A stretch of DNA of 34,758 bases. It comes from Bacteroidetes bacterium ADurb.Bin217 (GTDB taxonomy: Bacteria; Bacteroidota; Bacteroidia; Bacteroidales; UBA1715). The position numbers were made by a program, and so were the translations under genes. The stretch is from positions 1 through 34,758 of the forward strand of contig MWCJ01000030.1 of assembly GCA_002069975.1 (NCBI GenBank), in the 5' to 3' direction. Positions 1,585-14,077 of this stretch are shown piece after piece (positions within the stretch are counted from its first letter, which is position 1; each line of letters starts with the position of its first letter). The notes beneath the pieces were generated by a model. That model had not been told where the DNA came from and searched no databases. It saw only the letters and a list, made by a program, of their open reading frames with translations.

Positions 1585-1619
1585 TAGTAGATTTGGTTCG
1601 ACTAAAAACTATTCTACTA
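1585..1619 (+). promoter_or_regulatory. Hairpin covering the transposase start region
   Basis: The outer arms TAGTAGA (1585-1591) and TCTACTA (1613-1619) pair perfectly. Inside them TTTGGT (1592-1597) pairs with ACTAAA (1601-1606), with one G-U pair. The 3' arm runs into the A of the transposase ATG. Such a fold in a long read-through RNA would hide the start codon, as is known for IS10 and IS50. The pairing is seen in the sequence; the effect is inferred. Confidence 0.4.
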
Positions 1620-2818
1620 TGGACAAATCTACACATTTTTTTGGCACTTCGGTTTTCGGACAGCTAATTTCTTTAATTGACACAAAATTTATTAACTCTT
1701 CAACAAAGACATGCAATTCTGATAGATATGTAAAGAAGTTTACAACAAAAGACCATCTTATAAGTATGTTGTTTTGCTCGTTTGCAAAATGTTCATCACT
1801 AAGAGAGGTTTCTGGTGCAATGCTAGGTTTAGCAGGAAAGACTAATCATTTTCAATTGCAGCATATTCCAAAGAAAAGCACATTGGGTGATGCAAATCAA
1901 AGACGAGATGCAGAAGTATTTGGAAAAATTTATCATAAACTTCTTGCGAAGTATGGTCATGTTTTTTCGGACAGCCGAATAAAAGATGTGATAGATAAAC
2001 AAATAGAGATTTTTGATAGTACCACAATTAGTCTTTTTAAAGATATTTTACAATGTGTTGGACGGAATCCGCAAAATGGAAAGAAAAAAGGTGGAATAAA
2101 AGTTCATACTATTATAAATGTAGACCAAACTGTCCCTAAAATGGTTTGGTTTTCGGAGGCTGCAAAGAATGACCACATGTTGTTAGAAAAACTTAAAATG
2201 GATTCGAATACAATATATGTTTTTGACAAAGGATATAATGATTATAGGGCTTTCAAGAAATTTACAGATCATCAAACTGGCTTTGTTACTCGAATCAAAG
2301 ATAATGCAGTATATGAAATAATAGAGCAAAATACCTTGGAGGAGAATATACATTCGGGAGTAATAGAAGATACAATAATTGAAGTGACCGTTAAAGAAAA
2401 GAATAAAGAGAGTAAACTTAAACTTCGTAAAATTCGATTCTACGACAGAGTGTTAAAGCGTGAATTTGAATTTCTTACCAATTTATTTGAAATGAGACCA
2501 GACTTGGTTTCTGCAATATATAAACTACGCTGGCAAATCGAATTGCTGTTCAAACAATTAAAGCAGAATTTTCCTTTGAAATATTTTCTTGGAGATAATG
2601 AGAATGCTATAAAAATACAGATATATTGTGCTTTAATTGCCAATTTACTAATGACAGTTATTCAAAAAATACTAAAAAGGCGTTGGGCATTTTCAAATTT
2701 GGTAAGTTTTTGTAAAATTCATCTGTTTAATTACATTCATCTTATCAATTTTCTTGAAAATCCCGAAAACGATTGGCGAAAAATTCAAGAAAATTCAGTC
2801 CAATATTCGCTATTTTAA
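1619..2818 (+). CDS. IS4-family transposase
   Basis: The 399-residue DDE transposase cuts and joins the ends of its own IS. The N-terminal ~75 residues look like the DUF4372 domain found in this branch (HFFGTSVFGQLISLI and the following K-F-T-T-K-D-H-L segment). The catalytic residues are visible: D133 in IFDSTTISL, D203 in YVFDKGYNDY, and E308 within the IS4 Y(2)R(3)E(6)K signature (Y301, R304, E308, K315 in YKLRWQIELLFKQLK). The length is normal for the family and nothing is interrupted, so the gene looks functional. The start is the ATG directly after a hairpin. No Shine-Dalgarno is evident. The stop lies about 100 bases inside the right end. Confidence 0.95.
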   Translation: MDKSTHFFGTSVFGQLISLIDTKFINSSTKTCNSDRYVKKFTTKDHLISMLFCSFAKCSSLREVSGAMLGLAGKTNHFQLQHIPKKSTLGDANQRRDAEVFGKIYHKLLAKYGHVFSDSRIKDVIDKQIEIFDSTTISLFKDILQCVGRNPQNGKKKGGIKVHTIINVDQTVPKMVWFSEAAKNDHMLLEKLKMDSNTIYVFDKGYNDYRAFKKFTDHQTGFVTRIKDNAVYEIIEQNTLEENIHSGVIEDTIIEVTVKEKNKESKLKLRKIRFYDRVLKREFEFLTNLFEMRPDLVSAIYKLRWQIELLFKQLKQNFPLKYFLGDNENAIKIQIYCALIANLLMTVIQKILKRRWAFSNLVSFCKIHLFNYIHLINFLENPENDWRKIQENSVQYSLF

Positions 2819-4575: not shown

Positions 4576-5739
4576 CTATTTAAAGAACTTATCGTTCGGG
4601 TGAGGCACCGCATTTCTTCGAGCATCACGTCCCGGCAATTTTAAATTATGTATTTCAAACGACAATGTAATTTCATGAGAACCACCGGTACTTAATCCTG
4701 CTTGTGATATTGTCATATCATAACTATATACAATTTGATATAATGATTTTTTATCACGAGAATTCTTTTTATATCCCAATGTGAAAATCATAGAATCAAA
4801 TGTTTTATTTTTAAGATTAGCTATATCATCTTGTAAGGCAATCCGTTTTATATACATTTTCCGCATCCATATACCTGTATACAATGAAGACACAAAAGAT
4901 ATCTTAGAAGGAATTAACGCATTTATACCAAACGATAATGTTTTTGCACCAGCTTCTGAACCAGTAAACCATAAATTAGAAGGTGTTTGATTTTCAAATA
5001 AAAATCCCGGTGTCAACAAGAAAAATCTGTTATAAAAACCACTTCTATCTATACGCACCATTGAATACCCATGAATATTTACCTTCATTGGAAGCGGAGC
5101 TTCTTTTCCATCGTCAACCCATGACATATCAGGTTGCGATAAGTGATGAAATGCAATACCAAACGAGTTCGATGCAATATATTTAACTGGAGTTTTTCTA
5201 ATATTAAAACGAATTACTAAACCAGCATTATAATCAAATACACCTTGTTTCCAATACCCTTCACCTGGTGGAATAAATTCTGTTTCGTAAATTCTACCAA
5301 ATCGAGGATCAAATTCATCAACAAACGATAATTCAGTATAATCAATACTTTTATGAATATACTGAGCACCTGCACCTATTTGAAACATTAAGTCTGGTAA
5401 TACTCGAATTTGTTTTGCATAACCAACACCACCTTGAAAAGTATTAAGAAAATTTTCACCTTGAGTATTACGAGTAATATGACCACCTATACCACCTTGC
5501 GCAAATTTAACATCATAATAATCAAATGCTATACTTTGCGTACCCCATTCTCCGGGAACACTTGTCCATAGGTGCCTGTCAGTTACTGTACCTCGTAATC
5601 CCGGATTAATCCCTATAAATCCCGGATTATAATACATCTCTTTTAAGAAAAACTGTGAAAAGTTAGGATCTTGTGCATACAATTGTACGCCTCCAAGCAT
5701 GCTTATAATTGCTATTACAATACGGAATATCTTCTTCAT
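4576..5739 (-). CDS. PorP/SprF family outer-membrane protein (type IX secretion/gliding associated)
   Basis: This 387-residue protein has a signal peptide (about residues 1-22, ending LYAQ) and the family's opening QDPNFSQFFLKEMYYNPGFIG. That is followed by GTVTDRHLW, QSIAFDYYDVKFAQGGIGGHI and many alternating beta-strand segments expected of a small outer-membrane beta-barrel (PF11751). Members pair with type IX secretion and gliding components, or serve as membrane anchors for large C-terminal-domain adhesins. No such adhesin or other secretion gene is adjacent, so it is an orphan copy here. The gene stands alone, with a shared terminator downstream and a long upstream gap that holds a possible -7 box. 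The N-terminal Met is set by the signal peptide. Family assignment is confident; the specific partner is unknown. Confidence 0.9.
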   Translation of the reverse strand: MKKIFRIVIAIISMLGGVQLYAQDPNFSQFFLKEMYYNPGFIGINPGLRGTVTDRHLWTSVPGEWGTQSIAFDYYDVKFAQGGIGGHITRNTQGENFLNTFQGGVGYAKQIRVLPDLMFQIGAGAQYIHKSIDYTELSFVDEFDPRFGRIYETEFIPPGEGYWKQGVFDYNAGLVIRFNIRKTPVKYIASNSFGIAFHHLSQPDMSWVDDGKEAPLPMKVNIHGYSMVRIDRSGFYNRFFLLTPGFLFENQTPSNLWFTGSEAGAKTLSFGINALIPSKISFVSSLYTGIWMRKMYIKRIALQDDIANLKNKTFDSMIFTLGYKKNSRDKKSLYQIVYSYDMTISQAGLSTGGSHEITLSFEIHNLKLPGRDARRNAVPHPNDKFFK

Positions 5740-6087
5740 TGTATATTGTGTATTATCGTAATAATTTTTTAAAAAATTCTTTCTCTCAACACGGTTAGAA
5801 AAAATCTTATATTATCGCCGTGATATGCAAACTTACAAAAAAAAACATAAAAAAAACATAGCTTATGCAATAAAGTGAGGAAAATCTCATATTTTTTTTA
5901 GGTCTTAAAAATACAACTTGGAAAACAATCACATTAAAAACCTGTTTATCAAATATTTAAAACAAAAAACATTTACTATACGCATGAATATTTTTTATGA
6001 AAAAAATTTGCACTAACACGGATTTTTCTTTAGTTTTTAAGGTAAAAATTAATAAAAACTCTCTTTTTAATATGCGTTAACGTCAAT
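5740..6087. other. 348-bp intergenic region without a gene
   Basis: The region is very AT-rich. It holds no open frame longer than a few codons that looks coding, and no RNA gene was recognised. The only signals seen are a -7-like box for the PorP-type gene (5828-5835, minus strand), a weak 5-bp inverted repeat CACGG/CCGTG around 5790-5822, and the short palindrome CGTTAACG at 6075-6082. No convincing terminator for the regulator gene ending at 6088 was found. Confidence 0.5.
5828..5835 (-). promoter_or_regulatory. Candidate -7 box for the PorP-like gene
   Basis: The minus strand reads TAAGTTTG, an exact match to the Bacteroidota vegetative -7 consensus TAnnTTTG, about 90 bases before the start codon. 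No TTTG lies at the usual 19-21 base spacing upstream, so this is only a candidate. Confidence 0.3.
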
Positions 6088-6750
6088 TTAAATTTGAATA
6101 ATGTTATTTTTAATAGCATACTTCATTAAATCTACTGCTGTTTTTAATTGCAATTTTTGCATAATATGTGTTTTGTGCGACTCAACAGTTCTTACACTTA
6201 TAAATAATTTTTCCGCTATTTCTTGGTTTGTAAAACTATTACCCCATAATTGTAGAATTTCAATTTCACGTGAACTCAATGTTTCAATTCCTTTTAATGA
6301 AGAAATGCTTTCATTGTTTTGAATTGAATGTACGTATCTGCTCAATAAAATTGTTGTAATACATTTACTAAAATAATCATGTCCGTTTCGTAAAGTATAC
6401 ACAGCCTCTATTAAATCACTTCGTTGAGAATCGTGTGCCAAAAACCCTTTAACTCCGGCACGTATAATATTAAAGATAGTTTGTTCCTGTTCCGAAAATG
6501 AGATAAGTAATATTTTAATTTTAGGATATTTTTTTCCTACAATTTCGACGTCTTCAATAGTTTTCGATTCTACTTTAGGGATATTTATTATCAATATATG
6601 AGCATGTTGTGCAATTTCCGAATCAATAAAATCAACTACATATAAATGTTTTGAAATAACATTAAATTCGGGAATTGAAAACAATAATGCCTCAATTCCT
6701 TCATTCAACACATGGTGTAATCCAACTATTGCAATACGTATCTCACTCAT
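6088..6750 (-). CDS. LuxR/NarL-type response regulator with a degenerate receiver
   Basis: The 220-residue protein has a receiver-like fold (about 1-120) and a C-terminal LuxR-type helix-turn-helix (about 157-216). The latter is intact: LSSREIEILQLWGNSFTNQE then IAEKLFISVRTVESHKTHIMQKL. The receiver has lost its chemistry. The acidic pair normally found before the conserved His is G10-L11 (IVGLHH). The phospho-acceptor Asp is N56 (ILIINIP). The conserved Lys near the end is H106 (GFLAHDS). It should bind DNA but not accept phosphate in the canonical way. Its ATG overlaps the end of the 1386-residue sensor gene by 8 bases (ATGAGTGA), so the two are translated as a pair and probably work together. 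Targets are unknown. Confidence 0.93.
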   Translation of the reverse strand: MSEIRIAIVGLHHVLNEGIEALLFSIPEFNVISKHLYVVDFIDSEIAQHAHILIINIPKVESKTIEDVEIVGKKYPKIKILLISFSEQEQTIFNIIRAGVKGFLAHDSQRSDLIEAVYTLRNGHDYFSKCITTILLSRYVHSIQNNESISSLKGIETLSSREIEILQLWGNSFTNQEIAEKLFISVRTVESHKTHIMQKLQLKTAVDLMKYAIKNNIIQI

Positions 6751-9700
6751 AATCTAAACTATAAACCACCGCACTTCTATGTTTTCCGTCCATTACTACA
6801 CGCAGCGGTTTTTTTAACTGAACGTATTTAAAAAACTCTGTCTCTTTAACGACTTTTTGTTTATCTAATATGTGCCAAGAAATAAAATTTTGTTCATTTA
6901 TATGCTCAATTGCAAAATAACCTACATTCATTGACGTAATATTATGAAAAAAATGTGAACCTAATGAAGAATCTAAAGGAAAATTTGACAAGCTTGTTTC
7001 AACAATAATTTTTGCATTAGATATTTGAGGCCACTGCACCGGAATCCCCAAAAATCTATCACTTGTTCCCCACCTACCGGGTCCCACTAATACATAATGT
7101 TTATTTAACAAAATCATTTCTTTATTTAACAATTCTATTTCTTGAGCCATTTCAATAGTTCTCATTTTATCAAAGGCATCAGGTTTTACAAAAATCACAT
7201 CAGTTAAATCTTGAATAACACCATTTCCTAATGCTTGAGATGAACGCAATATAACTTCCGTATATACATTTTCATCCTTATAATCTGATTCTTCCGGTAA
7301 TACATTTACAGTTAAAGGTTTAATTTGTAACAAATAAAAACGAGGAATACCAAATTCTTCTTTTGATAAATCAACAGCAAACTCAATTTCAACAGCACAC
7401 CCCATAGCTTCTTTAACGGTATCAAGCATCCTTGAAATAATTTGAGGTAATGGTATGTAATTATATTCTAAAATATTTGCAAAATTAACTACACGAGCTC
7501 CTTCACCGGATAAACCAGGCTCTAGTCTATCATTTTGAGTATTATACACAGAAACACAATGCGTTAATGTTTTATGTCGTTCTGCTTCTTCAATTGAAAG
7601 AGATACTAATGCTGCCCGCTCTCCATCTTTTATAAAATCATACGATTGTTTTTGTAAATCTACAGCTAAAAATTCAACTTGTGACGATTGCACCATACTC
7701 TTCACTGACATCATTTGTAATTTTGGATATATTGGCGAAAATCTATATGACTTACCACCATCAACAATATAAAAGCCTAATCCAACAGCACACATCGCAA
7801 ATCCCTCTTCGGGCTTCATATGCGATACTGGATAAAAATTATACGATTGAGCAACTCCACTTATGTGAGGATAAAAATATGATTCATAATAATTCCCAAC
7901 TAATTCTTGCAATACAACAGCCATTTTCTCTTCCTCAAGATTTAAATACGTATGTTTATAAAACTGCTTAACTTGTTGAGTAAAAACTGAGGCAAACACT
8001 AATTTAATAGCAGTTTCTAAATCATGTATTCGCTTTTCCGAATTACTATTATTAGGTATGATATACGTACTAAATAAGCCCGCAAGCGGCTGGTTCAATG
8101 AATCTTCAAATATACTCGATGATCGCACTGCAATAGGTTTATTGATTTGTTCTAATAAAGCTATTAGTTTTTTACGCAAATCATCCGAAAGTTTGCCTTC
8201 ACAAAACATTTGTTTAATTTCCTCGTCAGAATATTCTTTTTCATATACATTTTTATTTGATATATATGTTTTAATGAATTTTTCAAATTCATCTGTTCCA
8301 ATTATTGCTGTACGAGGAGTTGTAATATGAATTTTATCTGCAAATGGATTAAAATCAATATTTTGAATAAGAGCATTTGCAAAAGCTAACCCCCTACCTT
8401 TCCCCCCCATAGAACCGGAGCATAAACTAACGATACTATTTTCGTCAATTTCTATTGTTTCTTCAAAACTCAATATCTTTCCACGCTTTTTGGTTCGCTT
8501 ATGTTCTTCAAATATTTGTATATTTTTCAAACGCAACTCATCAATACTTTTAAAATCAGATAATTGAATAGGATTCATTTTAGTTGCTATATCTATTTCA
8601 CCTCTTCCCATTAACCAAATTGAAAATTGATTTTGTTGGGCATGAAATGCAAGTGAATCATCTGGTATTGTTCGTAACATTGTTTCGAATTCTCTTAAGT
8701 TTTTTGCTTTTCCTATTGGTTTACCTTTGGAATTTCTAAAAATAAAATCACCATAGCCAAAATTATGCATAACAAATCGTTTGATTTTATCTAATAATAT
8801 TTCAGACTGTTTAAGGATAAACGATGCTCTAATTCTTTTAGCAACATCTACAAAATCAGCATCACTTGACTGAATTAAAATTGGCAAATTCACATCTAGT
8901 TGCCTAATTTTTTCTAAAAATTTAATTCCCGATGATTTATTTATTAATCCAGATTGCTCGAACTCACCATCACAAATTATACAAGTAATAAAATCTTTAT
9001 ATTTATTATATAAGAAACTTGCTTGCTCAAAATTTGTAGCCCATAATAGTTTTGGACGGGATCGCATTCTCGATATTTTCTCAAGTTCATTCAACTCATA
9101 ATCAACAATTTGCTCGCCAACCTGATTAAAAAATACTGAATATATTGCAGGTAAATATTTTGAATAGTAATATGGAGAATCTTCAATTAATAATATAGCC
9201 CTTACAAGACCTATTTTCGTGTCATTTTCAACATTTGCAAGATCTTCAAGTGATTTAACCATTGCAAAAAATATTTGCGAATCGCCATTCCAAATAAATA
9301 TTTTATTAAACAAAGAATTTTGCAAAATAATATTTTGAAAATACGCAACATTTGATCGTTGATTTAACAATAAATAAATTGGAATATCTGAGGAATATTC
9401 TCTAATTTTTGAACCTAATTGAATAGGGTCGTTTACATCAGCTCCGACCATTAGTACTACCATATCAAATTTACTGCTTTGCAATAAATCTAGAGCTTGT
9501 TCGTGCGAAGATACACCAATAATTCGAGGCAATGAGAATAAACTATATTGATAAATTGGTCCCATAAATTTTTCAAAAAAACTATCGTCTTTTTCTAAAT
9601 TATAGGCATCATACAATGTTGCAACAAACAAAATCTCTTTAACTTTATACTTCATCATATCTAGATATATATATTTATCTAGAATTTGTTTGTTTACAAA

Positions 9701-10903
9701 ATTTTGTAAAGGTTGTTTATCCTTAATAAGCGACTCTCTGTATACATCAGTATTAACTAAAGACTGAACTGCAGGTTTATTAACTATTTGTCTTCCTTTA
9801 GTATCATTTAAGAAACCTTGAATCAAACTAGCAATATTTATTATCAAATTCCGCTCTTCTCTCAAAAAAGGACCTTCATCCAAAAGTGGAAATTCTTTTG
9901 TATAATAAATCTCTATACTTCCAATATTATTATCAAAAGTCACAAAAGTTTCTTTCATACACCAATTAGTACATGTAAAATCGGCACTTACATACTTTTT
10001 ATCTTCATACATAATGCAACTACAGGTATACTTAGGATATTGCCAAGACGCAGGTAATATATCACAAATTTGTTGAAGAGTATCATCAATTGGTCTTGCC
10101 TGGTTTAATATATATCGAGTTTTGTTTATCCCATCTAATTCCTTAAGACGTTCATTATTTTTATACAACAAATCTCTTAATAAATCTTGATTTATAGTTG
10201 CTACTATAAGCATACAAATATTATGTAACAAATCAATTTCCTCTTTTAAAAAAGGTCCCTTATATGCATCTTTAAAAGCTTGCGTATAAAATATTTCTAT
10301 TTTACCTTGTTTATTATGTGCTGTTTTAAAATGCTGCTTTAAACACCATTCTGTTTTTATAAATTTTTTGGTTGTATATTCAGTATTATCAAATATAATT
10401 CTTACCACAGTATTATCGGGATACTGCATAGTTTGAGGAATATAATTACATATTTCTTGTAATTTCTGTTCTATTTCTTTGTTTTGTTTAAAAATATGAG
10501 TTGTTTTTGTGATCCCATGTAATTCTTTAATTCGTTCAGTATAATCATACGAAATAATTGACAATTTTTTTTGAGCAATAAAACCACTAATCATTGCAGC
10601 TATTTGCTGTAAATCTTCTTTAAAAAAGATTGAAGTTTCTGTTGGTGTTTTATAGTATATTATTAGTTCCCCCAACTTTTGCTCTTGTATTGAGATTTGA
10701 TGCTTTTGTGTATATTGGGTAAACAAACATTCCAAACTCACACTGCTAACACCTTCGTAAACTATCTCTACACCGGCTATATTAGACAACATCCAATGAT
10801 TATAAATACTATCAACAAAACGTTGCAACATATCGGAAATAGTATCAAAACTATTTCCTATTGTAATTATTTCTTGTAATACCCCTTTGGTTTCTCTATT
10901 CAT
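6743..10903 (-). CDS. Giant sensor protein: repeated sensor domains, receiver-like modules and a PPDK/PEP-synthase ATP-binding domain
   Basis: The product has 1386 residues, no signal peptide and no membrane span, so it is probably cytoplasmic. Residues 1-115, 122-240 and 251-365 are three copies of one sensor-like unit; the last two share ER(I/L)KEL.GI.KT, QYP and GPFL(K/R)EE. Residues 420-555 look like a degenerate receiver. Residues 566-705 form a receiver-like module with E574-D575, D645, S680 and K698 in the expected order. Residues 820-1200 are a pyruvate-phosphate-dikinase N-terminal-like ATP-grasp domain: GSMGGKGRGLAF near 833, AVRSSSIFEDS near 927, and EIEFAVD then LLQIKPLT near 1172-1197. 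The C-terminus (VGPGRWGTSDRFLGIPVQWP) is typical of this Bacteroidota family. The phosphohistidine and PEP-binding barrel domains of true PEP synthase are missing. It is therefore likely a signalling protein rather than a metabolic enzyme; the reaction is unknown. Confidence 0.88.
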   Translation of the reverse strand: MNRETKGVLQEIITIGNSFDTISDMLQRFVDSIYNHWMLSNIAGVEIVYEGVSSVSLECLFTQYTQKHQISIQEQKLGELIIYYKTPTETSIFFKEDLQQIAAMISGFIAQKKLSIISYDYTERIKELHGITKTTHIFKQNKEIEQKLQEICNYIPQTMQYPDNTVVRIIFDNTEYTTKKFIKTEWCLKQHFKTAHNKQGKIEIFYTQAFKDAYKGPFLKEEIDLLHNICMLIVATINQDLLRDLLYKNNERLKELDGINKTRYILNQARPIDDTLQQICDILPASWQYPKYTCSCIMYEDKKYVSADFTCTNWCMKETFVTFDNNIGSIEIYYTKEFPLLDEGPFLREERNLIINIASLIQGFLNDTKGRQIVNKPAVQSLVNTDVYRESLIKDKQPLQNFVNKQILDKYIYLDMMKYKVKEILFVATLYDAYNLEKDDSFFEKFMGPIYQYSLFSLPRIIGVSSHEQALDLLQSSKFDMVVLMVGADVNDPIQLGSKIREYSSDIPIYLLLNQRSNVAYFQNIILQNSLFNKIFIWNGDSQIFFAMVKSLEDLANVENDTKIGLVRAILLIEDSPYYYSKYLPAIYSVFFNQVGEQIVDYELNELEKISRMRSRPKLLWATNFEQASFLYNKYKDFITCIICDGEFEQSGLINKSSGIKFLEKIRQLDVNLPILIQSSDADFVDVAKRIRASFILKQSEILLDKIKRFVMHNFGYGDFIFRNSKGKPIGKAKNLREFETMLRTIPDDSLAFHAQQNQFSIWLMGRGEIDIATKMNPIQLSDFKSIDELRLKNIQIFEEHKRTKKRGKILSFEETIEIDENSIVSLCSGSMGGKGRGLAFANALIQNIDFNPFADKIHITTPRTAIIGTDEFEKFIKTYISNKNVYEKEYSDEEIKQMFCEGKLSDDLRKKLIALLEQINKPIAVRSSSIFEDSLNQPLAGLFSTYIIPNNSNSEKRIHDLETAIKLVFASVFTQQVKQFYKHTYLNLEEEKMAVVLQELVGNYYESYFYPHISGVAQSYNFYPVSHMKPEEGFAMCAVGLGFYIVDGGKSYRFSPIYPKLQMMSVKSMVQSSQVEFLAVDLQKQSYDFIKDGERAALVSLSIEEAERHKTLTHCVSVYNTQNDRLEPGLSGEGARVVNFANILEYNYIPLPQIISRMLDTVKEAMGCAVEIEFAVDLSKEEFGIPRFYLLQIKPLTVNVLPEESDYKDENVYTEVILRSSQALGNGVIQDLTDVIFVKPDAFDKMRTIEMAQEIELLNKEMILLNKHYVLVGPGRWGTSDRFLGIPVQWPQISNAKIIVETSLSNFPLDSSLGSHFFHNITSMNVGYFAIEHINEQNFISWHILDKQKVVKETEFFKYVQLKKPLRVVMDGKHRSAVVYSLDYE

Positions 10904-10990
10904 TATAATTTATTTTCAAAACAGAAAACAACACCTGCTCTGCAAAAACATATTTCGAAAATACAATATATTTAATAAATAACCATAAAA

Positions 10991-11020
10991 AAAGCGGCAT
11001 AAGAATATTTATGCCGCTTT
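10991..11020 (-). terminator. Intrinsic terminator after the FadL-like gene
   Basis: AAAGCGGCATAA (10991-11002) and TTATGCCGCTTT (11009-11020) form a perfect 12-bp stem with a 6-base loop. On the minus strand it is followed by a T-run (opposite 10984-10990), so it ends transcription from 11043-12509 before the sensor gene. Confidence 0.88.
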
Positions 11021-11042
11021 AAAAAATTGTTTGTTTATACAA

Positions 11043-12509
11043 TTAAAACTTGAAACCTATAGTTACTAAGATATTATCACGCTTTAATTGAGTACTTGAA
11101 CTTATTTCTTTTCCATTAAAATCACTATATAATTGATTGTATTGTTTCGTATTAGAACGAACCCATGCTAAATCACAATAAAAAGAATCATTACCTATAC
11201 CTACTCCACCAGAAACATCGGTTCGTATAATCGGATCTTCTGTAACATGCTTTGTATATGGATTTCCGTAGGAAGCAAAACCACCTCTAAAACTAAAAGG
11301 ACCATAGCGTAATTCACCACCTATTTTCAAATTATCGGTTTTAGTTAAATTGTCCTCAATAGCTTGATTTCTTATAGACTCTTCGGTAGAATTTAAATTT
11401 AAATACCCATACGAGTAATTAATACTTTCATAATCTACCCCTAAAACTGCAATATTTTTATACACAAAACCTAAACTCGCTATCATTCTTGCTGGAGTAA
11501 GCATTTGATAATCATACTCATTTATATTTTCCGCATATTTTTCAGTAAAATTTAAATTTTCAAAATTAGCTTGAATACTTGAAGTGGTAGTTGTATTCAT
11601 TGAATAAACCGAAGGTGAATGAGCGGCAAATCCTAAACGTAAATATTCTATAGGGCGAACAATAACACCTATCTTAGCATTAACTCCCATTCCATTAAGT
11701 TCGGTTTCTCGACTATAAGTATAATTATTTAAATACAATAATTCTAATTGATTATCTGTTTCGGTAAAACTAAACTTTTCTGAATAAAAAATGCTTTCGG
11801 CGGCTATATTTGCACCTATATACACTTTTTGTGAAAAATCAATTCCAAAATTAGCCAAATATTCTCTTTTTGATCCGGTTTTCTTTACATTAATTGATTG
11901 TTCTTGCCCATACACAGTTTTAATTGCATTTCCATCATACCATCGAAAATCGCTTACGTAAGACTGACTTGCGGTATCATAAAAAATAAGATTTGCATTA
12001 TATGCTAAATCATTATAATCGGCATACCACAAATCTTTATTAGCTAAATATAAAAAATCATCTGTTAAAGAACTCGAAACATTATTTGCGTTGTAATTCG
12101 AAGATTGATTATATAAATTTTGTCTGTTTATAGAAAACCCAAATGAAACACCTGTAATAAACAAATCACCTTCTTTTACATTTTTACCGGCAACAAAACC
12201 AACATTTGGAATTTTTAAAGCCCCAGTGAAAGCTCGGTCATAATTTCCAAGATAATGATTTTCAGTTTTAGTTAATGTAAATTCCGGAGAAAATTCGAAC
12301 ATAGAACCTCGAACTAAAGCACTTCCGGCGGGATTAACACTCAAAGCAGAAATATTTGCACCTAACGACCCAAAAGCACCTGCCATTGCAGAATATCGTG
12401 CATTTCCGGTTTGATATGATTGACTATATCGCAACACATCTTCAAAATCTTGAGCCCAACTCACTATTGCTAGGCAACTTACTAATATACTTATAATTAT
12501 CTTTTTCAT
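11043..12509 (-). CDS. OmpP1/FadL-like outer-membrane transport protein
   Basis: The 488-residue protein has a signal peptide (about 1-19, ending SWAQ). It then carries the conserved N-terminal segment ARYSAMAGAFGSLGANISALS and VNPAGSA, typical of Bacteroidota members of the FadL/OmpP1 family, where an N-terminal hatch plugs the barrel. The rest is rich in alternating aromatic strands and ends in Phe (VTIGFKF), as outer-membrane barrels do. Family members take up hydrophobic compounds; the substrate cannot be read here. The gene lies 17 bases downstream of the Tyr-rich lipoprotein gene and is followed by a strong terminator, so the two are probably one transcript. Confidence 0.87.
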   Translation of the reverse strand: MKKIIISILVSCLAIVSWAQDFEDVLRYSQSYQTGNARYSAMAGAFGSLGANISALSVNPAGSALVRGSMFEFSPEFTLTKTENHYLGNYDRAFTGALKIPNVGFVAGKNVKEGDLFITGVSFGFSINRQNLYNQSSNYNANNVSSSLTDDFLYLANKDLWYADYNDLAYNANLIFYDTASQSYVSDFRWYDGNAIKTVYGQEQSINVKKTGSKREYLANFGIDFSQKVYIGANIAAESIFYSEKFSFTETDNQLELLYLNNYTYSRETELNGMGVNAKIGVIVRPIEYLRLGFAAHSPSVYSMNTTTTSSIQANFENLNFTEKYAENINEYDYQMLTPARMIASLGFVYKNIAVLGVDYESINYSYGYLNLNSTEESIRNQAIEDNLTKTDNLKIGGELRYGPFSFRGGFASYGNPYTKHVTEDPIIRTDVSGGVGIGNDSFYCDLAWVRSNTKQYNQLYSDFNGKEISSSTQLKRDNILVTIGFKF

Positions 12510-12526
12510 ATCAATATGTATTTAAA

Positions 12527-13975
12527 TTATCTATTGTTTGGATTTCGTGAAGAACTCGAGCTCGTTGGTTTTGATGATTGAGATGACGAGCGCTGTGTAG
12601 AATTACCGCTATATGATTTACTGCTCGAAGGTTTACTATAAGAATTTGTATTACCACGAGAAGGAGATTGAGACGATGAATAATTCTTTTTAGTCGAATA
12701 ATCTTGCGGGCCTCTACCTGATTGTGTTCTGCTAGATTGTGAAGTTTGTTCAGACTTTCTATAATTATCAGAACTAGAACTATTTGCACGAGGACTTACA
12801 TGAGAATTACTGTTTCCCGATTGATACGAACGAGGTGTTGCATTATTATTTTGTACTTCACGACTTTGATTTGTAGAACGAGAATTCACAATTTTATTTT
12901 GAGGTTGCTCAATATTTGAACGTGAAGAATTTGGCTGAACTCTGTTTTGTTGAGCTGGGACACCTGTCCGAGGAGGTGCACTTTGATTTCTAGGCTCTAC
13001 TGTATTTGAACGAGAATCATTTTTTTGTTCATTTTGCGGTATAGCTTGAGAACGATTAGATGAATTTGGTCGAGATTGCTCTGCAGCCGAACGCCCCGAA
13101 TGTGAACTAGTAGGAGTATTAGTACGAGTTGTTGAAGGAGTTTGACTTCTTTGTTCACTAGAATTGTTATAAGATTTTGAATTATTTTGTGAACGAGGTG
13201 TTGCTTGTTCTATTCTTTGTGAACTTTGTGATGCACGAGAAGATGAAGAACTACTTGGAGAAGAGGTTCTTGTTTGGTTACGCGAATTATCGGAATAAGT
13301 TCCAGTTTTAGTTCCATTCGAATATGTTGAAGAAGATGGTCGAGATTGAGCTTGACTTCTTCGTGAACTTGAACTTGAATTAGGTCCATAGGTATCATAT
13401 CGTGGTTTTGAATGAGAATAGTATCGAGGATATGAATAATATGGATAATCATAATATCTATAATACGGATATCTATATCCATAATAATATGAATCATAAT
13501 AATAAGGACGATAATATCGATATCCCCATGGTCGATAACTTATACTCCAATATGGGTCACCAATGTTAATAGACACATTCCAATCTGGATAACCATAATA
13601 ATTATCATAATAATAAGTTGGGGTATACGAATCGAAAAAACGACGTGAATAATAATAATCGTCAGAATATACATTACCATAATAATTATTAATTACAGTA
13701 GGTTCATCTGTTAAATAATTTGTTTCTTCTTGTTCGTTTAATGGAAGGGATTGAACTGTATTTTCTGCAAAATTTTCTTGATATACTTGATTGTCAATAG
13801 TACCATCTGCATATACAGGTTGAGAATTGTTGGACTGTGCCTCTTGAGCAACCTCTTTATATTTAGGCTTAGGAGAATACACATCGTCTTGGTATTGAGC
13901 ATTTAATGCCTCCCAAGAACTGCACGACATCAAAAATATCGTACTAACTATTGTTATTGAAATTATTGTTTTCAT
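12527..13975 (-). CDS. Tyr-rich, Ser/Asn/Gln/Arg-rich lipoprotein of unknown function
   Basis: The start at 13975 is chosen because GGAGG lies 8 bases upstream and [10 protein letters not shown] begins a lipoprotein signal ending L-M-S-C, giving C18. The frame is open five codons further (13990), but that start would lie over the ribosome-binding site. The mature protein of about 465 residues has an acidic/Asn segment, then a roughly 100-residue stretch with about 38 tyrosines (many YYY runs with Asp, Arg and Pro). After that come nearly 290 residues of Ser, Asn, Gln, Arg, Thr and Pro with almost no hydrophobics. It should be anchored in a membrane and mostly disordered outside the cytoplasm. 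No catalytic domain is visible. It precedes the FadL-like gene in an apparent operon. A structural or matrix role is a guess. Confidence 0.82.
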
Positions 13976-14077
13976 TGTTATGTCCTCCATATGTTTAAAA
14001 ATATAAATATTTTTTTATTTATTTGCATAAAAATTAGTTTTTTTTCATTTTCAATTTTCATACCAAACATATATAAT

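Follow-up and report, generated by a model that had tools for sequence, protein, structure and literature searches.

In bacteria, the means by which a DNA-binding response regulator is switched once it has lost its phosphorylation site remain an open question (PMC12632262), which is raised by a pair of minus-strand genes in the window analyzed here, a 34,758-nucleotide stretch (contig MWCJ01000030.1, positions 1 to 34,758) from Bacteroidetes bacterium ADurb.Bin217. An 8-base stop/start overlap (6743-6750) joins a 1386-codon gene (6743-10903), which encodes a large multidomain protein, to a 220-codon gene (6088-6750), which encodes a NarL/LuxR-type regulator (Table 1). Directly downstream of the pair lies a gene for a type IX secretion membrane protein of the PorP/SprF type (4576-5739, minus strand), and the sister genome G001 has a homologue of it at the corresponding position. 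The window also codes for a DDE_Tnp_1/DUF4372 transposase (1619-2818, plus strand), just upstream of a gene for a chorismate-binding enzyme, and for a 487-aa protein with a high content of Ser, Asn, Tyr and Arg (12527-13990, minus strand), which has a lipoprotein-like start (LMSCSS) and belongs to no Pfam family. No RNA or tRNA features were found in the window.

Table 1. Features of the gene pair, in window coordinates
Feature	Position	Strand	Evidence
220-aa NarL/LuxR-type regulator with degenerate receiver	6088..6750	-	GerE E=1.6e-18; Response_reg 0.0063; residues checked
Regulator pseudo-receiver, residues 1-125 (G10, L11, N56, S84, H106; clade-specific Y118, R121 on alpha5)	6376..6750	-	
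Regulator LuxR/GerE DNA-binding domain, residues 157-212	6115..6282	-	Pfam; nearly invariant across clade
Gene overlap, 8 bases, stop/start	6743..6750	-	
1386-aa sensor/dikinase-like protein	6743..10903	-	Homologues in 56/60 relatives
Large protein, N-terminal region, residues 1-370, ~3 related ~120-aa repeats	9794..10903	-	Internal repeats in tblastn
Large protein, Asp-less receiver-like domain, residues 420-560	9224..9646	-	
Large protein, receiver with complete site, residues 566-705 (E574, D575, D645, S679, K698)	8789..9208	-	
Large protein, DUF5752-like linker, residues 732-806	8486..8710	-	30.5 bits, cut-off 23, searched alone
Large protein, PPDK_N ATP-grasp domain, residues 831-1201	7301..8413	-	Pfam E=1.3e-35; invariant residues
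Large protein, C-terminal domain, residues 1204-1386, swivel-like fold, H1317	6746..7294	-	Structural match and invariance; without sequence support

Alignment of the regulator with VraR, NarL and intact cousins reveals that G10-L11, N56 and H106 occupy the positions of the acidic pair, the phosphorylatable Asp and the Lys, as the preliminary description of this locus had read them, and that the Thr/Ser position (S84) and the aromatic position (F103) are retained. Pfam recovers the GerE domain, with the Response_reg match falling under the Pfam cut-off. An AlphaFold2 model based on 16 orthologues (mean pLDDT 84.7) assumes a normal (beta-alpha)5 receiver followed by a helical output domain, and its receiver aligns with known receivers at a best Z of 19.1 (rmsd 1.5 A over 119 aligned residues; VIA-align). 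The protein accordingly combines a NarL/FixJ-type receiver fold and a GerE/LuxR DNA-binding domain with the absence of a phosphorylatable site; a recognizable receiver fold devoid of the key catalytic residues is what defines the pseudo-receivers (PsR/ALR).

Loss of the site is not peculiar to this genome. Among the first 60 relatives, all 16 regulators encoded beside the large gene lack at least one key residue, and a profile search of 247 genomes of the order added nine more, none of them complete, so that the full phosphorylation site is found in 0 of 25 adjacent regulators (25 genomes of the same order). An intact regulator beside the same large gene was sought, and none was found among these 25 or among the strongest matches in the 247 genomes. 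Both the pairing and the loss are conserved among orthologues, and the earlier proposal of gene control that bypasses His-to-Asp transfer onto the regulator is partly supported; these results support the view that the regulator is unable to take a classical His-to-Asp phosphoryl group. The commonest change is Asp-to-Asn. In some members (e.g. G227 and G129) Asp is the sole loss, with the DD pair and Lys kept, a pattern suggestive of an early loss of Asp followed by drift of the remaining site residues; the regulators of G046, G002 and G159 retain the Asp and lack other site residues.

In a tree built with the site columns removed, all 25 dead sequences included in it form one clade (100/100) apart from 19 intact cousins. 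Judged from these sequences, the dead regulators have one evolutionary origin and the 25 adjacent cases are not independent events; independent pairs are too few for a sign test of the co-change of adjacency and site loss. The three intact cousins that were checked, those of G211, G036 and G140, directly adjoin HisKA_3 histidine kinases, making it a reasonable inference that a kinase-paired ancestor changed partner.

The large protein has homologues in 56 of the 60 relatives, as a long form with the N-terminal repeats (~41-76% identity) and a ~1000-aa paralogue (~36%), often in tandem; a separate scan of genome contigs with the large protein picked up the sister genome alone. Of the dead regulators in the tree, six do not directly adjoin the large gene: a distance of 3.9 kb separates one from it, and each of the remaining five shares its genome with a long form encoded elsewhere (5/5). 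Every genome checked that has a dead regulator also has the large protein. Many genomes possess the large protein, the long form included, with no dead regulator adjoining it, so it has a function that does not need the regulator. By these patterns of gene content, the regulator depends on the large protein in a one-way fashion, and the large protein is the older and more widespread of the two. The pair is arranged on the same strand in some genomes and divergently in others, indicating that the pairing has survived rearrangement. Gene pairing alone could mean shared expression only.

The dN/dS of the dead receiver is ~0.016, 0.035, 0.10 and 0.27 in four species pairs, the last two values being rough as their dS is >1. 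By this measure the dead receiver is under purifying selection; it is chemically dead yet not decaying. Comparison of dead and intact receivers points to where its surface may matter: R121 is present in 25 of 25 and Y118 in 22 of 25 dead receivers, neither is conserved in the intact ones, and both map to helix alpha5 of the AlphaFold2 model. This helix is the face commonly used for receiver contacts. The same comparison revealed neither a clade-specific conserved Cys nor an obvious pocket in the pseudo-receiver. It had also been suggested that the ATP-binding domain of the large protein may act on the regulator; covalent action of this kind is not supported, as no clade-specific acceptor residue was seen. 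Covalent action on H106 in particular was rejected, given that the position takes 11 different residues across the clade (H, Y, S, N, M, Q, K, A, I, C or G). The PPDK-like domain may instead change shape with ATP/AMP, as was also suggested.

The N-terminal repeats of the large protein are a probable sensor. They gave no convincing Pfam match, and GAF domains were rejected as a candidate for this region, with support from neither Pfam nor PDB sequences. The live receiver (566-705) contains an acidic pair, Asp, Thr/Ser and Lys, and these residues are kept in essentially all of the 51 homologues: E574, D645, S679 and K698 do not vary, and D575 is almost invariant. Its fold comparison gave a Z of 15.0 (rmsd 2.0 A, 125 aligned residues), and by residues and fold it is probably phosphorylatable. 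The earlier assignment of E574, D575, D645 and K698 stands, but the T/S position is the invariant S679 and not the variable S680. Another receiver, which lacks the Asp and immediately precedes the live one (~420-560), had been missed. Residues and folds agree with the central claim that the live receiver sits in the large partner and the dead one in the DNA-binding protein. Profile searches are likewise in line with the earlier reading, in that they found no histidine kinase domain (HisKA/HATPase) in the large protein.

The PPDK_N domain has six residues that are invariant in the 51 homologues, namely K835, R927, T946, E1172, E1174 and Q1193. In our reading of the alignment the first three fall at the positions of the Lys, Arg and Thr that hold the ATP triphosphate in RPH (PMC4844700), and the large protein is likely to bind ATP on the strength of these residues. 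No match to the C-terminal PEP/pyruvate-binding barrel (PF02896) was obtained in the 51 homologues, and the large protein ends at residue 1386. Within the ATP-grasp domain of the window (7301-8413) and its homologues, the long form always has the motif LQ-x-K-P, and the short form and the canonical dikinases have LQ-x-R-P; the variable residue is the equivalent of PPDK Arg337, an active-site residue.

The remaining segment, residues 1204-1386, strongly conserves the motifs YxLxGPGRWG and GS/THFF, the latter containing H1317, which is invariant (51/51) and kept in the divergent homologues inspected. Related sequences elsewhere in the phylum also retain the motifs, among them a receiver-less 580-aa form and a distant ~1065-aa form. 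Several loci from other lineages (L162, L163, L167, L179, G432:C50 and G303:C112) encode a ~580-aa protein with PPDK_N and the C-terminal domain and no receivers, and a highly diverged ~1065-aa relative is encoded on the same strand of the same contig, ~2-3 kb away; the two could possibly constitute a two-protein system. An AlphaFold2 model spanning residues 405-1386 as one piece (mean pLDDT 84.5, pTM 0.66) was compared with known structures by VIA-align. It aligns with PEP synthase (2ols) at a Z of 24.4 (rmsd 4.6 A, 366 residues) and with the PPDK of C. symbiosum at a Z of 17.5 (rmsd 5.3 A, ~348 residues). The two alignments reach chain residues 467 and 505-511 respectively, where the swivel phosphohistidine domains end when located by sequence comparison with true swivel domains. 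Matches to 1dik and its relatives and to 5hv3 extend to the swivel-domain end, domain orientation being uncertain at a pTM of 0.66. In the DSSP string of the model the order of strands and helices fits a swivel domain, and H1317 would lie at the start of the phospho-His helix.

Sequence comparisons were uniformly negative on this point. Eight members gave no PF00391 match up to a Pfam E of 10; hhalign returned no profile-profile score for the domain against seven swivel domains, or against 29 with a broadened query in local and global modes; and hmmsearch against PDB chains revealed no swivel homology. Swivel domains carry a T/SxxGGxxxH motif (PMC12167813), and this is absent from the C-terminal domain. 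Sequence homology to PF00391 was rejected on these grounds. The newly recognized resemblance of residues 1204-1386 to a swivel domain is one of predicted fold and not of sequence. On balance we favor the domain being a swivel relative; that H1317 carries a phosphate is a more tentative proposition, and that such a phosphate feeds D645 is doubtful. If the domain is a phosphohistidine swivel, the large protein could itself harbor a phospho-His route of a non-classical kind.

Given that a dead regulator is joined to a partner with a working-looking receiver and ATP module, the pair probably signals by touch or by unusual ATP chemistry rather than via a conventional histidine kinase. We propose, with a probability of about one half, that the state of the large protein is passed by direct contact to the pseudo-receiver of the regulator, which binds DNA without Asp phosphorylation. 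The large protein would comprise a probable sensor (the N-terminal repeats), the Asp-less and live receivers, the ATP-grasp and the swivel-like domain. Its state would depend on bound nucleotide, on whether the live receiver is phosphorylated (D645), or on both, and it would engage the alpha4-beta5-alpha5 face of the pseudo-receiver; the regulator would then bind DNA, never being phosphorylated on Asp. This is the most economical reading. Given that protein contact is among the controls described for pseudo-receivers, along with ligand, redox and amount (PMC12632262), a pair working by contact would be of a known general kind.

Control by amount might suffice if the regulator is constitutively active and encoded in an operon with the large gene, the two proteins never touching. 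The overlap of the genes implies co-expression, and an expression-level mode for constitutively active pseudo-receivers has been discussed (PMC12632262); however, the pairing is kept in divergent layouts, co-occurrence holds where the genes are apart, and the clade-specific surface residues of the pseudo-receiver are conserved, and we consider this scenario unlikely. Less probable still is the direct action of a small molecule or redox signal on the pseudo-receiver, with the large protein as a separate dikinase-type metabolic enzyme that is simply co-regulated. The ligand-bound pseudo-receivers JadR1, RedZ and CikA are precedents (PMC12632262), and the large gene often lies near that of an enzyme, glutamate dehydrogenase; but the lack of a clade-specific Cys or obvious pocket among the dead receivers, and the presence of the large protein in every genome checked that has a dead regulator, do not favor it.

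A further alternative is a dikinase-type phosphoryl relay within the large protein. The ATP-grasp domain would phosphorylate His1317 of the C-terminal domain, from which the phosphoryl group would move to Asp645 of the same chain, and the phosphorylated receiver would control the pseudo-receiver regulator, a PPDK-derived unit thereby replacing the histidine kinase. The invariant ATP-site residues are equivalent to the Lys, Arg and Thr of RPH (roles in PMC4844700), the matches to 2ols and C. symbiosum PPDK extend to the swivel-domain ends, and the secondary-structure order fits, with G-S/T-H at the helix start and H1317 invariant in 51/51. Moreover, with neither a PEP/pyruvate nor an antibiotic-binding domain in the large protein, no phosphoryl acceptor other than the receiver is evident. 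Points against the relay are the failure to obtain a PF00391 match or profile-profile score, the absent T/SxxGGxxxH motif and the receiver-less 580-aa form of the family, which indicates that a receiver is dispensable for whatever the ATP/His unit does. We regard such a relay as improbable at present, and the same goes for its specific version in which a dikinase-derived ATP-grasp/phosphohistidine unit stands in the kinase's place (ATP to His1317 to Asp645) and is read by a dead regulator through contact only.

The system differs from each of its nearest known parallels. Maule et al. 2015 found Asp-less receivers enriched next to PPDK domains (PMC4395418), so that the joining of the two is not itself new; the passage of that study reporting these ALR-PPDK proteins, in which Asp-less receivers are likewise attached to PPDK domains, does not describe a mechanism, a partner regulator, a neighboring live receiver or a C-terminal His domain. 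ALR regulators such as ChxR, HP1043, NblR, WhiI and CmrT share the site-less receiver fold, the working DNA-binding domain and the signature of selection, whereas the dead regulator here is tied to one partner with a live receiver and ATP-grasp, and its whole clade is of one origin. PEP synthase, PPDK, rifampin phosphotransferase and two-component HpeHI-type dikinases also have an ATP-grasp with phosphate-binding residues and a His swivel domain that the C-terminal domain resembles in predicted fold; unlike them, the large protein lacks a PEP/pyruvate or small-molecule-binding domain, the swivel motif and the PF00391 signature, and has an N-terminal probable sensor and receivers. PleD (receiver, Asp-less receiver and diguanylate cyclase; Foldseek E 1.2e-7) similarly places tandem live and dead receivers before an enzyme domain, but the order here is dead-then-live, the output module is of the ATP-grasp type and the gene next door encodes a dead DNA-binding regulator. 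In contrast to classical two-component systems, the large protein has no HisKA/HATPase, while the three intact cousins checked have a HisKA_3 partner. A literature search returned no paper on the family of the large protein and no precedent for such a regulator partner.

Gene neighborhoods offer a clue to the possible targets. In 18 of 50 loci a glutamate dehydrogenase gene lies no more than ~2.1 kb from the large gene: in 12 the distance is 61-371 bases and no regulator intervenes, and in six, where the dead regulator adjoins the large gene, it is 0.86-2.1 kb. In several loci the regulator is between or beside the two. For genomes of 3-4 Mb this proximity is far above chance, but the loci share common descent. 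The family to which the window belongs has glutamate dehydrogenase elsewhere, not near the pair. Four genomes (L073, L077, L078, L082) have genes coding for a thioredoxin-like 2Fe-2S subunit and for a flavoprotein resembling NuoF/Complex1_51K beside the large gene, the flavoproteins being hydrogenase- or NADH-dehydrogenase-like. These contextual connections suggest that the physiological theme is probably the central nitrogen and energy/redox economy, with glutamate dehydrogenase as the first candidate target. As a separate observation, seven loci in other genomes of the order (L075, at 6036-12567, L080, L079, L086, L085, L084 and L074) carry the long form and the ~1000-aa paralogue in tandem, and in six of the seven glutamate dehydrogenase lies 61-351 bases away with no regulator between.

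Together the above observations suggest that evolution has fixed one pseudo-receiver regulator to one partner with a live receiver and an ATP-binding unit. They single out specific testable residues, R121 and Y118 in the regulator and D645 and H1317 in its partner, along with glutamate dehydrogenase as a candidate target. More generally, they point to a widespread family of uncharacterized PPDK-like proteins that look regulatory, not gluconeogenic.
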